A stretch of 64,000 bases of DNA from Candidatus Aegiribacteria sp. Its GTDB lineage: Bacteria > Fermentibacterota > Fermentibacteria > Fermentibacterales > JCC-6. The translations under genes were made by a program, and so were the position numbers. The notes beneath the pieces were generated by a model. That model was given only the letters and a program-made list of their open reading frames with translations, was not told the DNA's origin and searched no databases. The stretch is taken from contig WTBT01000017.1 of NCBI GenBank assembly GCA_013138965.1, positions 1 to 64,000 of the forward strand, written 5' to 3'. Shown here piece after piece: positions 4,477 to 50,005 of the stretch. Numbering within the stretch: the stretch's first letter is position 1; every line of letters starts with the position of its first letter.

Positions 4477-5689
4477 TTTCCAGGAAGTAGATCACCGTCA
4501 TTTCACTTCGCAAAGAATCAACAAGGGAATTGTACGTATCCTGGTAGATAACCTGCTGTACAAGTCCGTCAAGCTCCGCCTCTGTGTATGAGTTCCAATC
4601 GATATCTCCAGAGTCTTCGTAGAGCCTGATAATGACAACGGCTGCAGAACTCTCCAGAACAACCGGTTCGGAACAGGAACCAATCTCAAGCCCTTCAACC
4701 GCTTCGGCTACTTCATACAGCCATAGTTTCAACGGTATCATCCCCATGTCGCCGTCGCTTTCGGAACTTGACATGTCCCGGCTGTACACTCGGGCGGCAT
4801 CCTCAAATGATAACAGTGAATTGCGGATATCACAGAGTATACTATCTGCTTCAGCTACTGTACGTTCGATATCTGCAGGATCTATGGGAACAACCCTGAG
4901 TATATGGCTGGCTTCAATAGTACCGTCTTCGTTTCTGCCGTCCAGCCTGATTATGTGTATGCCGAAGGGAGTCACAACCGGTTCGCTTATTTCGCCTGTT
5001 TCAAGGGCAAATGCGGCATCCTCAAAGGCATAAGTCATCTCTCCCGGGCCGAATGATCCCAGATAACCTCCGTTCCTGGCGGAACCGTCATCCGAATATT
5101 CCATCGCAAGCTCTTCAAAAGACTCACCGGAGAGTATTCTCGCCCTTATTCGATTCATTTCTTCTACGACTTCATCGAAATCAGGGCCGGCAGGAAGAAC
5201 GGGAAGATATATCCATCCTATATGCCTGGGCATTATTATTTCCTCAACAAGTTCAGGGTTTGCAAGCAGATACGTCTCCGGACTCAATGGCATATCCTGC
5301 ATGGCAGCCTGAACTTTCCTGAAGATAAACATCTGTGCAGCCTGATTATCAGCCAGAACTTCGGTGATGTATTCGATATCCGCGTCAAACCCCTGCGGGC
5401 TGAGATCAAGCTGTTCATCAACAAGAACCTGGATCTCGTCATCGGTGGGATAGAATCCGGCACCCACCGCAGCATTCACGATCAGGCGGGTCTCAATCAG
5501 TTCCTCAAGCGCATCATAGTACTCAGGGGTTTCCGAATCTATCTGGTAGCTGTCGACCGGATCCAGACCCATCTGAACAAGTAATCGCTCAACCTCCGAA
5601 TGCAGTATGGGGCTGTTGTCAACAACGGCCACTACCTTCTCCAGAGGGAAGAACATTGTCAGAAGCATCGAAACAAGCAGTGCAGTCAT
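4454..5689 (-). CDS. surA: SurA-like periplasmic peptidyl-prolyl isomerase, two parvulin domains
   Basis: Exported chaperone/isomerase expected to help outer-membrane proteins fold. An N-terminal hydrophobic signal (MTALLVSMLLTMFFPLEKVV) is followed by a SurA-N-like helical region, VAVVDNSPILHSEV. A clear parvulin domain lies near residues 155-260, with NGGYLGSFGPGEM and FGIHIIRLDGR. A second, weaker parvulin module follows (EASHILRVVPI to MGMIPLKLW). Length 411 aa and two isomerase domains match SurA. It overlaps the next upstream chaperone gene by four bases. SurA is the best label, though PpiD/PrsA-like use is possible. Confidence 0.8.
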   Translation of the reverse strand: MTALLVSMLLTMFFPLEKVVAVVDNSPILHSEVERLLVQMGLDPVDSYQIDSETPEYYDALEELIETRLIVNAAVGAGFYPTDDEIQVLVDEQLDLSPQGFDADIEYITEVLADNQAAQMFIFRKVQAAMQDMPLSPETYLLANPELVEEIIMPRHIGWIYLPVLPAGPDFDEVVEEMNRIRARILSGESFEELAMEYSDDGSARNGGYLGSFGPGEMTYAFEDAAFALETGEISEPVVTPFGIHIIRLDGRNEDGTIEASHILRVVPIDPADIERTVAEADSILCDIRNSLLSFEDAARVYSRDMSSSESDGDMGMIPLKLWLYEVAEAVEGLEIGSCSEPVVLESSAAVVIIRLYEDSGDIDWNSYTEAELDGLVQQVIYQDTYNSLVDSLRSEMTVIYFLENDGTSAD

Positions 5690-6585
5690 TCTGCCTCTCC
5701 TCCGTCTGTACTGTCAATATCATCAGTATATTGTCCGGCGCCGTGAATTGACATGGCATTAAAATAAACTTCCCTGCTCGACGCGGCAATTTCAAGAATG
5801 CTGTCTCTTGCTGCATCCATTCTCTCTCTGTAGATATCATCGGCAAGGCTTCTCACAACCCGGGACGTGTCTTCAAGCGGCCTGATCTCATCAACAAGAA
5901 ATATGTGCCATCCGTAAGCAGTATTCGTAACTTCTCCCAGACCTTCAATAACCGCGTGATCTCTTGGTACTCCGTACATAATGAGCTCACCGGCTGTCAG
6001 AAATCCGAGATCACCTCCGATGCCGGCTTTCTGCCCTATTGAAAGCCTTTCGGCAGTTATCTGAAAATTTTCACCCCATGAAAGTCTTTCATGTATTGAA
6101 TCGGCGGTGAATTCATCGGAAACCAGTATCTGGTAGTAGTGCCGCTCAACCATGTAGGCAAGGCTGTCGGATCTCATGAACCGGAATACATCTAAGTTGT
6201 CGGGAAAAGGTATGCCTCCGTATACGCTCGAAAGCAGTTCATCCCTCAGGTAGATCTGCCTTGCCCTGTCCTGTAGAAGCCTGCTCTTTCTAGTATTCTC
6301 CAGACCCCGCTGCGCAGCCAGTGCGGCCAGCAGTTCGTCCTCGATCCATTCTTCAAGGACCGAAGGATCGATCCCGACGATTGCCATATCTTCCAGGAAG
6401 ATCACAGAACTGTCTACTCTCGCAACAACAAGACGAGAATCCACACTGCTGCTTATTTCCGGCAGCTCAATGGAGCCAACCGAAGCTATCCTCCTGTTAA
6501 TGACAATTATAACAGCAACTGTTACAGCAAGAGTAATGCCGACAAGTATCCAGACCGCCCAGGTCAGGTGCTTTTTGTTAAAAAT
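5686..6585 (-). CDS. Membrane-anchored parvulin-like isomerase (non-ATG start likely)
   Basis: The C-terminal part has the parvulin signatures GIGGDLGFLTAGE and AYGWHIFLVDE, after a helical N-domain (IDPSVLEEWIEDELLA). The ORF track begins at GTG 6444. The same frame stays open upstream and encodes KKHLTWAVWILVGITLAVTV, an obvious signal anchor, so I extend the gene to an ATT codon at 6585. A CTG at 6567 is the alternative; there is no ATG, GTG or TTG between 6445 and the upstream stop. AAAGG lies about ten bases before the ATT, and the start would overlap the stop of the preceding ppiC gene. The isomerase call is solid; the exact start is inferred. Confidence 0.75.
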   Translation of the reverse strand: MFNKKHLTWAVWILVGITLAVTVAVIIVINRRIASVGSIELPEISSSVDSRLVVARVDSSVIFLEDMAIVGIDPSVLEEWIEDELLAALAAQRGLENTRKSRLLQDRARQIYLRDELLSSVYGGIPFPDNLDVFRFMRSDSLAYMVERHYYQILVSDEFTADSIHERLSWGENFQITAERLSIGQKAGIGGDLGFLTAGELIMYGVPRDHAVIEGLGEVTNTAYGWHIFLVDEIRPLEDTSRVVRSLADDIYRERMDAARDSILEIAASSREVYFNAMSIHGAGQYTDDIDSTDGGEAE

Positions 6586-44492: not shown

Positions 44493-45413
44493 ATGAGTAT
44501 AGTTAAGTTAAAGTCTAACTGGTACAGTAGAATTCTTCTCATTATAGTGCTGCTTGCGGTTACCTGGATGGTATGGAAGAATATTTCTGAAATATCCAGT
44601 TATGATTTTGAATTGAAGTATGAATATTTCATTGCAGGTTCTATTTTAATTATCATAAATTATCTATACTGTTTTTTGATCTGGCATCGGCTAACAATTT
44701 CTATGGGGCTGCATGTTCCAATGATCAGGGCTGCAAGAGGATGGTTTCTTTCATATCTTGGCAAATATGTTCCGGGAAAGATTACACTCTTACTGGTCAG
44801 AATGGATGCATACCGCGGTTTTTCAAAGAAGAAAGTGGCAGTTGCTACAATGGTGGAATACATTATCGCACTTACCGCTTCATGTCTGGTGTTGCTTATT
44901 TCAGTATCCTTTTCTCCGGGCATTGTTCCAGGATATGTACGCTGGATAGCGGCTGCAGGTGCTACTGTGATGCTGACTGTCCTATATCCTCCATTTCTTA
45001 GAACACTCGTAAACATGGGATTCAGATTAATAAAGCAAACTCCTTTGCTTGAGGTTCCGAAATTCAGAAATATTCTGTCCTTCATTGGAGCCTATATTAT
45101 TGCCTTTCTTTTATCAGGTCTTGCACTTTTTCTTATATTTAACTCCCTTTCGCCCGTAAGCTTCAGATATTATCTTATCATCACAGGCATTTACAGTATC
45201 GCAGGATTAATTGGTCTTGCAGCATTCTTTGCTCCCAGCGGCATCGGTGTCCGGGAGGGTGTGCTGTTTCTTATCCTGCCCGCATTTATTGCAAAACCAA
45301 CTGTAATTGTTGGTGTGATCGCCATACGTCTTGTAACTACCGCAGTAGAGCTTTTTCTGGTGGCTGTTTTTGTTATCGCCCAAAAAATCTTCTCAAATAA
45401 GAGATTGAAATGA
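44493..45413 (+). CDS. UPF0104/lysylphosphatidylglycerol-synthase-like membrane protein
   Basis: Eight or so membrane helices with GWFLSYLGKYVPGKI and the family mark AAFFAPSGIGVREGVLFLI. Members of this family are flippase-like or lipid-modifying proteins and are common in glycan loci. It may translocate a lipid-linked sugar. It overlaps the next gene by four bases (ATGA). Confidence 0.82.
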   Translation: MSIVKLKSNWYSRILLIIVLLAVTWMVWKNISEISSYDFELKYEYFIAGSILIIINYLYCFLIWHRLTISMGLHVPMIRAARGWFLSYLGKYVPGKITLLLVRMDAYRGFSKKKVAVATMVEYIIALTASCLVLLISVSFSPGIVPGYVRWIAAAGATVMLTVLYPPFLRTLVNMGFRLIKQTPLLEVPKFRNILSFIGAYIIAFLLSGLALFLIFNSLSPVSFRYYLIITGIYSIAGLIGLAAFFAPSGIGVREGVLFLILPAFIAKPTVIVGVIAIRLVTTAVELFLVAVFVIAQKIFSNKRLK

Positions 45414-47173
45414 TTGTATTCATCAGTACTTTAATCTTCTTTTCAGTAGTGGCTGTATCCATCAGCGGATGGGGAGTTCTAGCGCTTCCTAACTCAGAAT
45501 CGTGGTCAAGGAAATTCGGCGCTGGAAGCCTGCTGATGTTTTTCCTTATATCGGCTGCCGGATGGTCAGGGCTTCTTGTACCTGCCCTGCTATGGGCAAT
45601 CCTTGCCATCGGAACTCTTCTATGGGTTCGACCAGGACGGTTCTCTATGCCCAGGGGCAGCGTAATGCTAGCACTCTGCGGATTGATACTTTTCCCTCTT
45701 ATACTCCTCCCGCCGATTTCCAGAGACGCAATGATTCATCATCTTTATCAGGCCAGGATCTGGCTTGAAGCAGGAAGGATTGTCAGACCGGATTGGTCTG
45801 GAATTTTCAGTTATCCATACCTGGTCGAATCTTTCTATACGATTACAGGCGGAACTTTCGGATTCAGAGTCTCAAGAGCGGTAAGTCTTCTTGGTTTCCT
45901 TGCCGGCTGCTCCGTGGTTACAGGTTACTTCCTCAGGAAAGGAAGAAAGAAGATTGCGATTCTTTCTCTGATTGTGCTGATGAGTATTCCTGAACTTGTC
46001 AGAAATGCAACCTGGAGTTATTCAGATTCTTTTCTTATCTTCTTTTCTCTTCTCGCCTATCTGGAGCTTATCAGAAAAGAAGCTAATCCCGTTCTTGCGG
46101 TACTGTGGGCTGGAGGCGCGAGCTGCTGTAAGTACAACGGTTTCATTGTGCTTCTATCCGTCTGTATTCTTCTGCCGTATTTCTTTAGAAACATGACCAG
46201 GAGAGCTGTTCTATATTCTATTTTCGCTGCTCTCTTTACCACGGCATGGTGGGTTATTCCAAATATCCTGCAATGGGGTAATCCGGTATATCCGCTGTTT
46301 CAGGGGATCTTCGGCCCTGATACTCAGCTTAACAGCAGAGCAGCTGGATACTATGCCATGAACACTGTCAGTACCTCTCTCAATGGAATCCTGGATTACC
46401 TCCTTCTTCCTGTCCGAATATCGCTTCATGGAGAGTGGAACAATCCTGCTCTGTTCGACGGGTCATCCGGACCCTTGCTTCTGGCAGGCACGATCCTTGC
46501 TTTTCCATTAGTGAAATACAAAAGACGGAAATTCCTGCTGCCGTTTATTTATATGGTTATAACACTGATCGCAAATGGAGCAGCTGTCAGGGTTCGATAC
46601 CTTCTTCCAGGTCTTGTAATGCTATCCATTCCGGTATCAGAAGCATTCGGAAACCTTCTCATGAACAGAAGTAAAATCATGAGATCTGCTGCACTTCTTC
46701 TGATTTCTGTATGCGTGATCTGGTCAGCAGACAAAATCATGAACCTTTACGTACACGAAAGACCATGGGAATTTCTGGATGATGAAACATATCTTGATGA
46801 AAACGCTTTCTATTATGACTTTTTTCAGAAATGTGATCGCTACATATCCCAAAGTGATACAACGCTGTTAGTTAATATGAACCGTCCATTCTATTTTCCA
46901 GGATATGCTGTTTTCGATCATAAAGTAGTGCCGTTTGAATTGATGGAGATGCTCTGGGCAGGAATGGATTCCGGGGAGATGATGAATGCACTCCGGAACA
47001 GGGGAATAACTCATTTAGCCCTGGATATGTTTCTTACCTCAATAAATATTACTCCGGAATTATCAGCCGGTGAACTGGAACAATGGAGGAAATTCCTCTC
47101 CTTCAATCTTCATCCATTATTAACTGTTGACCGCTTCATTCTGTTCAGGCTCAAATCCGGTCCCGGCTCTTAA
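45410..47173 (+). CDS. Large GT-C-like membrane glycosyltransferase
   Basis: Twelve or more predicted helices over 500 residues, an early periplasmic loop PPISRDAMIHHLYQARIWLEA and ATWSYSDSFLIFFSLLAYLE, then a C-terminal soluble domain (DYFFQKCD-like segment to LFRLK). The Asp in the first loop is the expected position of a GT-C catalytic acid. Family 39/83-like by shape only. The gap to 47192 carries the AAGGAG ribosome-binding site of the next gene. Confidence 0.65.
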   Translation: MIVFISTLIFFSVVAVSISGWGVLALPNSESWSRKFGAGSLLMFFLISAAGWSGLLVPALLWAILAIGTLLWVRPGRFSMPRGSVMLALCGLILFPLILLPPISRDAMIHHLYQARIWLEAGRIVRPDWSGIFSYPYLVESFYTITGGTFGFRVSRAVSLLGFLAGCSVVTGYFLRKGRKKIAILSLIVLMSIPELVRNATWSYSDSFLIFFSLLAYLELIRKEANPVLAVLWAGGASCCKYNGFIVLLSVCILLPYFFRNMTRRAVLYSIFAALFTTAWWVIPNILQWGNPVYPLFQGIFGPDTQLNSRAAGYYAMNTVSTSLNGILDYLLLPVRISLHGEWNNPALFDGSSGPLLLAGTILAFPLVKYKRRKFLLPFIYMVITLIANGAAVRVRYLLPGLVMLSIPVSEAFGNLLMNRSKIMRSAALLLISVCVIWSADKIMNLYVHERPWEFLDDETYLDENAFYYDFFQKCDRYISQSDTTLLVNMNRPFYFPGYAVFDHKVVPFELMEMLWAGMDSGEMMNALRNRGITHLALDMFLTSINITPELSAGELEQWRKFLSFNLHPLLTVDRFILFRLKSGPGS

Positions 47174-47191
47174 CCGCGGAAGGAGTTCAGA

Positions 47192-48121
47192 ATTTTCATT
47201 TACGCTTGTTTAAGCCTGGCGCTTCTTTCCGGTCATGTTCCATATCAATCAGGCCGGCATGAATTTACAGTGATAAATGAAGTAAGGGATCTTGAAATAG
47301 TCAGTCTTTATGTCTGGGGCGCAGGACATAAAAGCAAAGGGGATAACAGACTGCATTCCAGTTTACAGCCGGATTCAAGTGTTACTTTATCTTTGCCATC
47401 GGGAAATTGCAACATCCTCGCGTTTGATGAGTTGGGCAACTCATATGGTATCGCTGGAAACTATCAGAAAAACGCTCCCGATACTATTACTGTCGACCTG
47501 GAATACCTTACTTCCGGAAGACCAAACGCTGATTATGGACATTATATGCTGAACCTGACTAATTCACTTCACGGATTTGCACTGGATACGCTTATGCTCT
47601 CTTCAAAACAGCTTATCGAAGACATCATAATAGATGATTTCAGAATATTCCCCGGAGCCAGTACCATTATCTGGCTGGATAAAGGTATCTATTCGATCAA
47701 TGTTGTAGATCAGATCGGCAGAATATACAGTGCAGATTATATCACCGTACCGTCTGACAGCTGCGTTGTTAGTATAATCAGCACTATGATCATCAATCCG
47801 CAACCACCTGTTGGAATAACAGGAAACGGCTCTGGATCACTCTTTATAGAGAACTGTCTTCCGATGTCAGTGATTACGGAAATGCAAATAATCGCACAGA
47901 ATGTTTCGGATGGGATTTTCCTGGATAGTATAGCCCTTCAGCCCGGAGCAAGCATAATTGCGAAGCTGAATCCGGGAAATTATTCGGTAACGGCAACAGA
48001 CGAATTTGGCGCTGAATACAACATTTCCATTGAGCAGCAGGATACGGGAACACTAAGATTGCCGATAGTAAATGAATATCTGCATTATGATTTCAGCTTT
48101 CCCAAAAACGGTCTGGAATAA
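47192..48121 (+). CDS. Exported protein with three tandem beta-rich repeats, ATT start
   Basis: The track starts at GTG 47270 without a ribosome-binding site. The frame stays open back to the previous stop and has AAGGAG (47180-47185) six bases before an ATT at 47192, followed by a signal sequence (FIYACLSLALLSG). I take the ATT as the start. The mature part has three related units of about 60-85 residues, each ending in the pattern LxPxxS...LxxGxYxxxxxDxxGxxY (for example SLQPDSSVTLSLPSG, IFPGASTIIWLDKG, ALQPGASIIAKLNPG). This looks like a small beta-sandwich repeat. Function unknown; it lies between two GT-C membrane proteins. Confidence 0.7.
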   Translation: MFIYACLSLALLSGHVPYQSGRHEFTVINEVRDLEIVSLYVWGAGHKSKGDNRLHSSLQPDSSVTLSLPSGNCNILAFDELGNSYGIAGNYQKNAPDTITVDLEYLTSGRPNADYGHYMLNLTNSLHGFALDTLMLSSKQLIEDIIIDDFRIFPGASTIIWLDKGIYSINVVDQIGRIYSADYITVPSDSCVVSIISTMIINPQPPVGITGNGSGSLFIENCLPMSVITEMQIIAQNVSDGIFLDSIALQPGASIIAKLNPGNYSVTATDEFGAEYNISIEQQDTGTLRLPIVNEYLHYDFSFPKNGLE

Positions 48122-48124
48122 CAA

Positions 48125-50005
48125 ATGGGTGGTAATACGGCTCTGACCAACTGGCTCAGTATCAATTCGCTCGCCTGGTCGCTTCTTCGTATCGCAATTG
48201 TCTGGCTTGCTTTTTATGGCGCAGGTTCACTGACAATGCGATTCAGTTTAATGAAAAAGCACTTCAGGTTGATGCCTTCGGTTATCCCCGGAATGCTTAT
48301 TTACATGGGAGTAATAGTACTTCTTTCACTACTTCATCTGCTCACCAGAGGATTTTTACCCATCTTCATAATAATGGGTGCTTTAACCGGGCTGGTACTA
48401 CTTTACGTGCGATTGAAAAAGTACTTCTCCATTTTCCGCTTCAAATTGGAGCATTCTGTAATTATCCTGCCTTTCCTCCTGGCAGGATACATTCTGATTA
48501 CAAATATGATGCTGACGGGTCGTCCGGAAATGAATTTCAATGATACCCAGGTGACTTACCTTGTTCAACCAGACAGATGGCTGAATGATGGTCAGATTAG
48601 CTTTCTTGATGAAACAATATTTTCTGCCTTTCCAATGACTTCGGAAATGCTGTTACTGCTGCCTTCTTCACTTGCAGCTGATAGAGTGGATCAACTTATT
48701 CTAGGCCAGCTGTTTGAACTGAGCATGACTATTGGATTGATCCTGCTTGGCATGGCAATACTCGGGTTCGGGTGGAAATGGTATCCGGCTGCATTGATCA
48801 GTATTACCGGATGCTCCACAATTCTTCTATGGTGCCATTTCGCCAAACCCGATGCTACTGCTCTCTTCTTTGTCACAATTGCCCTGACTATTCTATTTAA
48901 ACAGATAATAGATAAGGATTACCATTCCGATTTGTCAGCATTTATAGTAATGGGTCTGGCGTTGACATCAAAAATTACAATTTACATTGTGCTTATTCCG
49001 TTTATCATAATGTATGTGTATAATATTTTATATAATAAACCTGACAGATATTATAGATTTTCAAGCATTATTCTGTTGATTATACTACCTCTTATTTTTA
49101 TGTTGCGGACGTTTATCCATACAGGAACTTTCTTCTACCCGCATGCTTCATTTACATCTCTACTGAAGCCTGAATGGCTGATGCCTGAAATACATCTTAC
49201 TTACTTTACATTCAACGATAGAAGTTCTGATTTCTACCCGACTGTAGGAATTCTTCAGAATATCTGGCATTACTTCGGAACCTGGAACTCTTCTATTTTT
49301 CTTCTGCTTGGAGGATACATTCTCACAATAAAGAGAAAGTATCTGAAAAGAAGAACTTTGATCATCACTGGTGTTGGGATTTACGCGATTATTTCCCTTA
49401 TTATGTTCTATCCTGCTTGGTGGGGGGCAAAATACGGAATAATGCTGATTCCCTTTGCCACACTGTTCGGTCTTTCTATGTTCAGGCACCTGAAATATGG
49501 CCTGGTTTCCGCGACTGTTCTGACAGTAATAATATATTTCATATATGACACTTCTTTATCACCAACTGAACACTACGGATTGGAATTCAGAACCGGACTG
49601 ATCGAATCCTATGTATGCAACGATTGGAAGGCATCAGGTTTGCAGTTTATCGAGAAACAACCTGAACTGAAAGCGACACTATGGATGAATTCCCATCTTC
49701 CGGGTAATTCAACAATCCTTTCATTTTTTGATAGAAAACGCTATTTCTATAATCACAGGTGGATTACTGCATTTGAGCATCCTGTTGCCGCGCAGATATA
49801 TTTAAGCAACAGTATTGAGTATGAAATCATGATTCTTAAAGAGTTGGATATAGATTATATCATCCTTGTAGAAAGTAACCCCGCGCCATTCGATGATGAG
49901 AACTCAGTTGAACTCTTTTCAAGAATCGGCCGGGGAGATGTGCTTGAACCGTTTGCGAATATCGATGGACACACAATATACAGGTTTTACCCTTCAAACC
50001 TGTGA
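48125..50005 (+). CDS. Large polytopic membrane protein, GT-C-like
   Basis: About 13 membrane helices, with the periplasmic MNFNDTQVTYLVQPDRWLND loop near residue 140 and a C-terminal soluble domain of about 120 residues (LWMNSHLPGNSTILSFFDRK, DIDYIILVESNP). Its shape matches the preceding GT-C-like proteins. The C-terminal part has the form found at the end of several bacterial GT39-like proteins. The start is three bases after the stop of the repeat protein. A strong hairpin follows the stop. Confidence 0.65.
   Translation: MGGNTALTNWLSINSLAWSLLRIAIVWLAFYGAGSLTMRFSLMKKHFRLMPSVIPGMLIYMGVIVLLSLLHLLTRGFLPIFIIMGALTGLVLLYVRLKKYFSIFRFKLEHSVIILPFLLAGYILITNMMLTGRPEMNFNDTQVTYLVQPDRWLNDGQISFLDETIFSAFPMTSEMLLLLPSSLAADRVDQLILGQLFELSMTIGLILLGMAILGFGWKWYPAALISITGCSTILLWCHFAKPDATALFFVTIALTILFKQIIDKDYHSDLSAFIVMGLALTSKITIYIVLIPFIIMYVYNILYNKPDRYYRFSSIILLIILPLIFMLRTFIHTGTFFYPHASFTSLLKPEWLMPEIHLTYFTFNDRSSDFYPTVGILQNIWHYFGTWNSSIFLLLGGYILTIKRKYLKRRTLIITGVGIYAIISLIMFYPAWWGAKYGIMLIPFATLFGLSMFRHLKYGLVSATVLTVIIYFIYDTSLSPTEHYGLEFRTGLIESYVCNDWKASGLQFIEKQPELKATLWMNSHLPGNSTILSFFDRKRYFYNHRWITAFEHPVAAQIYLSNSIEYEIMILKELDIDYIILVESNPAPFDDENSVELFSRIGRGDVLEPFANIDGHTIYRFYPSNL

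Follow-up and report, generated by a model that had tools for sequence, protein, structure and literature searches.

The gene for initiation factor 3 (IF3), infC, has an AUU, AUC or AUA start codon and is autoregulated. To our knowledge, very few other bacterial genes have a near-cognate start that is conserved. In Escherichia coli, by the account that a later paper cites, an AUU start limits expression of pcnB (Binns and Masters 2002, cited in PMC13009471). In Staphylococcus aureus reporters the AUU of cvfC1 and the AUA of ccpN reach about 10% of the level given by AUG, and near-cognate starts, at only four sites in the genome, are proven there by ribosome profiling and reporters (PMC13009471). 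The GTC start of Streptomyces sigR is repressed by IF3 and fixes the proportion in which two co-encoded proteins are made (PMC5472188). Among 61,358 AUG starts followed by ancestral reconstruction, two changed to CUG and one to AUU (PMC5622118), with counts of this kind resting on annotations that avoid CUG and AUU codons.

A gene for a putative exported protein in a Candidatus Aegiribacteria/Fermentibacteria MAG (G000) is very probably a further member of this small class. It was found in a window of 64,000 nt, the whole stretch of DNA analysed, to which coordinates refer unless a locus is named, on the plus strand unless stated. From the stop codon of the upstream gene (TAA, 47171-47173) the order read is CCG CGG AAG GAG TTC AGA ATT TTC ATT TAC GCT TGT TTA AGC CTG, after which the frame continues GCG CTT CTT TCC GGT. 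The AAGGAG Shine-Dalgarno sequence (47180-47185) ends 6 nt before the ATT (47192-47194), the spacing being proper here and alike in orthologues, and very probably, to judge from the comparison with relatives, this ATT is the start and has been maintained as a near-cognate one. The gene (47192-48121) then has 309 codons plus stop, 26 codons more than the form beginning at the GTG of the automatic call (47270-47272), and the additional part includes a hydrophobic stretch. Rereading bore out what the earlier note had said of the position and frame of AAGGAG and of the lack of any in-frame ATG, GTG or TTG ahead of 47270; none is able to supply the full conserved N-terminus.

An unbiased count of the codons that follow a Shine-Dalgarno sequence near the front of long frames, over 1.1 Mb of G000, has no excess of ATT or ATC, with 9 ATT observed and 8.8 expected, and 7 ATC observed and 6.6 expected. 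CTG (13 observed, 6.9 expected) and ATA (12 observed, 6.5 expected) are slightly in excess. As ATT and ATC are no commoner than expected, the 47192 site alone proves little and comparison is needed; it is because of the orthologue evidence that the ATT start is accepted. Inference of starts from coding potential was too noisy and was dropped.

Six further genomes of the genus have full-length orthologues, with 48-76% identity, and G006 has a C-terminal fragment. The start regions of G000 and G015 are identical, AAGGAG TTCAGA ATT, and the counterparts are AAGGAG TTCAGT ATC in G018, GGGAGG TAGAAT ATC in G010 and AAGGA ACGCATT ATT in G011, so that the distance from Shine-Dalgarno to ATT or ATC is 6-7 bases in all five. 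In G010 a TAG stands in frame two codons ahead of the ATC and leaves no other sensible start for the N-terminus. In the protein alignment all share a common first column, with G007 beginning three residues earlier. The ATG that the earlier note thought orthologues might have at this position is found in just two, G013 and G007; G018, G010 and G011 read ATC, ATC and ATT. The near-cognate codon is accordingly conserved between species in five genomes and four independent lineages, though an isoleucine conserved at one column in four lineages could, in isolation, arise by chance. By this alignment the non-AUG start has been conserved and does not reflect a point change, and the ATT start is very probably genuine.

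Over some 1.5 kb (45.8-47.35 kb; 45800-47350) G000 and G015 share about 96-100% identity, against a background of about 82%. Judged by that identity, the tract has recombined recently, and it takes in the end of the upstream gene as well as the start of the ATT gene. Because the recombined tract is shared, G000 and G015 are counted once, which makes the near-cognate lineages four.

Other starts and readings have to be set against these data. No canonical start codon precedes GTG 47270 in the frame, and initiation there would yield a protein without export and leave the upstream open frame untranslated. This is improbable, since the GTG is not preceded by a Shine-Dalgarno sequence and comes after the hydrophobic segment, which would be lost, as the earlier note had pointed out; moreover its column reads GTG, GTG, TTG, CTG, GCT, TTT and GTG in G000, G015, G018, G010, G013, G011 and G007 respectively, and the segment ahead of it retains frame and hydrophobicity in seven species. 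Absence of the signal peptide from orthologues, which the earlier note had seen as the way its proposal might fail, is not encountered: the hydrophobic N-terminus is kept in all seven, G000 included. An equally improbable start is a nearby codon, either the second ATT (47198-47200) or codon 7, which is the canonical ATG in G018 and TTG in G011 and might be usable without a Shine-Dalgarno sequence. Codon 7 is, however, TTA in G000 and CTT in G010 and is 24 nt from the Shine-Dalgarno sequence, too great a distance, and across orthologues constancy is confined to the first ATT/ATC column.

The upstream frame is contiguous and in phase with the ATT gene in G000 and G015, so read-through of TAA 47171 would fuse the upstream membrane protein to the exported protein. 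That there is such a fusion is very unlikely: the upstream gene of G018 is in a different frame and stops 82 nt short of the open frame, G010, G011 and G013 carry different sequence upstream, and the TAG of G010 stands in the way besides. ATT is one base away from ATG and the genome is a MAG; the chance that faulty sequencing or assembly has turned ATG into ATT is negligible. G015, an independent assembly of high coverage (79.8 according to the contig name), has the same ATT, three more species have ATC or ATT, and the error would need to recur in five assemblies; the correction to ATG that the earlier note contemplated has not materialized. Comparison of the sequences effectively excludes point error, upstream read-through and the rejected GTG, and favors initiation at ATT 47192.

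The segment that initiation at the ATT would add, (M/I)FIYACLSLALLSGHVPYQSGR (47192-47257), is probably a Sec signal sequence. A structure model, of low confidence with a mean pLDDT of 61.5, is all-beta apart from an N-terminal helix at residues 2-13. There is no lysine or arginine ahead of the hydrophobic stretch in G000, making it a weak signal sequence, and R or K is present there in G010 and G018. As to the three repeats that the earlier note ascribed to the protein, DELGNSYGI, DQIGRIYSA and DEFGAEYNI, following GNCNILAF, GIYSINVV and GNYSVTAT, are similar by eye without statistical confirmation, and BLASTP self-comparison of the protein did not detect repeats. Searches of Pfam, NCBIfam and PDB sequences gave no family or homologue, and the proteins closest in fold, at TM-scores of about 0.2, are multi-domain beta-sandwich proteins, which permits the description ‘beta-sandwich-like’ and does not indicate function.

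The gene is located between two multi-pass membrane protein genes in a glycan-type cluster, with LPG-synthase-like and glycosyltransferase-like genes nearby. The upstream one (45410-47173) is in the same frame and ends directly before the ATT gene. The product of the downstream one (48125-50005) is glycosyltransferase-like with a weak LIC_10190 match, below the cut-off for that family. Of the seven full-length orthologues, six are followed by this gene, and so is the partial copy of G006. As a working hypothesis, the most likely role of the ATT gene is low, IF3-sensitive expression of an exported accessory partner of the downstream membrane protein, with the start codon keeping the amount of this partner small.

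Near-cognate starts recur in this uncultured genus. Candidates were picked by Shine-Dalgarno or coding signal and then checked across its genomes. The second in the window is a PpiC-like gene (5686-6585, minus strand; ATT at 6583-6585). Its start is ATT or ATC in 14 of 16 genomes, in several of which a stop codon stands in frame two codons ahead of it, and this gene is probably the other candidate of the earlier note. Two candidates in one window, which that note had called unusual, are so by E. coli standards, but such starts recur in this genus. For infC (17/17 genomes where found) the start is ATC or ATT behind AGGAGG; in G004 the scripted pick was a neighboring ATA, and the ATT that aligns with the other genomes was taken instead. 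A TatD-radical-SAM fusion (L099:12591-13958, contig C76 of G000, minus strand), beginning cag gga gga tct gat CTG GAG, has CTG ahead of its DTHCH motif in each of the 17 genomes listed, and in G000 the first canonical start is behind that motif and would delete it. Gene finders normally accept ATG, GTG and TTG only, and proteins are therefore truncated, with loss of signal sequences and, in the case of the TatD fusion, of catalytic motifs.

A UMF1-like transporter (L094:5291-6580, C108, plus strand) has CTG in 15 of 17 genomes, with canonical codons nearby in G001 and G005; four of the CTG genomes (G016, G018, G012 and G004) also have an in-frame TTG, GTG or ATG 5-6 codons upstream. The 3-methyladenine DNA glycosylase-like gene, Mpg (L113:8191-8772, C6, minus strand), has CTG (or ATT) behind AGGAGG; of 16 genomes, 13 have the CTG and two have GTG. 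The start of an NtrC-type response regulator (L109:8078-9346, C15, plus strand) is ATA in G000 and ATC in six relatives, 7 of 13 altogether, and ATG in G007 and G001. On the same contig and strand a GatD-like gene (L109:11418-12800) has a probable CTG start after AGGAGGTGA TCC AAA in G000 and after GGGAGGTGA TCG AAA in G015. Its open frame of 463 codons lacks a canonical start for 56 codons in both, the N-terminus is nearly identical between them despite many synonymous changes, and, by length alone, the frame recurs in many genomes. Between G000 and G015 a near-cognate start is needed in 3 of 200 reciprocal-best orthologue pairs (the ATT gene, the glycosylase and the GatD-like gene), or about 1.5%, a rough estimate from this pair alone, with a wide error of roughly 0.3-4%.

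The initiator tRNA found is a single one with a CAU anticodon and GGG/CCC stem, and the 42 distinct tRNA sequences include no initiator with a different anticodon. Initiation at ATT 47192 would then be by the normal initiator tRNA(CAU), positioned by AAGGAG and with the codon read as formyl-Met, and would supply the exported protein with its signal sequence. By analogy with infC, pcnB or sigR, expression is rather likely to be low and IF3-dependent; we infer use of the ATT in the cell and low expression, and IF3 sensitivity from codon type only.

A hairpin over the Shine-Dalgarno sequence may reduce initiation further. Its possible arms, which are suggestive only, are at about 47174-47190 and 47216-47232 (hairpin 47174-47232, plus strand), with the Shine-Dalgarno predicted to pair with CTT CTT TCC at codons 15-18. 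The predicted exposure of the Shine-Dalgarno is below that of 98% (G000) and 99% (G018) of 133 ATG genes with a strong Shine-Dalgarno, and below that of 97-99.5% of synonymous recodings (fractions 0.005 and 0.028); G010 and G011 have the same direction without significance. The consensus has one compensatory change in nine pairs from four sequences, too few for proof, and no comparable hiding is seen in UMF1, Mpg, TatD and infC, the other near-cognate genes amenable to this test. That a hairpin conceals the ribosome-binding site of the ATT gene is a tentative reading, with somewhat less than an even chance of being right.

IF3 itself has a peculiarity in the lineage. In its (C/A)RIMDY motif serine replaces the usual arginine in 17 of 17 genomes (in G000 the gene is L086:1486-2007, minus strand), and the solved IF3 sequences compared, which from their sequence we take to be of E. 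coli, Bacillus/Geobacillus-type and Thermus-type, have arginine. A link between this serine and lax start selection is possible and is a lead only. More speculatively, and less likely than not, CUG, AUU, AUC and AUA might be stable conserved starts of many ordinary Aegiribacteria genes (at least 3/200 pairs, ~1.5%), far above model bacteria and perhaps by way of a less strict IF3 with Ser for Arg, so that the start codon would be a lineage-wide expression dial. The recurrence of CTG, ATT, ATC and ATA starts in the genus is a more interesting result than the single ATT gene. With several near-cognate starts kept in up to 17 genomes, variation of start-codon discrimination between phyla becomes testable.

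From the perspective of the described systems, the ATT gene is like infC in that a near-cognate start is behind a strong Shine-Dalgarno sequence and conserved between species. In contrast to the self-regulating infC, its product is probably exported and has no known connection with translation. As with pcnB of E. coli it is one gene whose expression an AUU start would limit, and the difference, as far as the cited account of pcnB goes, is that pcnB is a cytoplasmic enzyme and there is no orthology. It shares with cvfC1 and ccpN a conserved near-cognate start that follows an extended Shine-Dalgarno sequence; unlike S. aureus, Aegiribacteria would, to judge from sequence, have more such genes and use CTG as well. 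Finally, like sigR, the ATT gene has a conserved non-canonical start, which in sigR sets stoichiometry with a co-encoded partner and may do so here, though the sigR codon is GTC and its product is a stress-response regulator.
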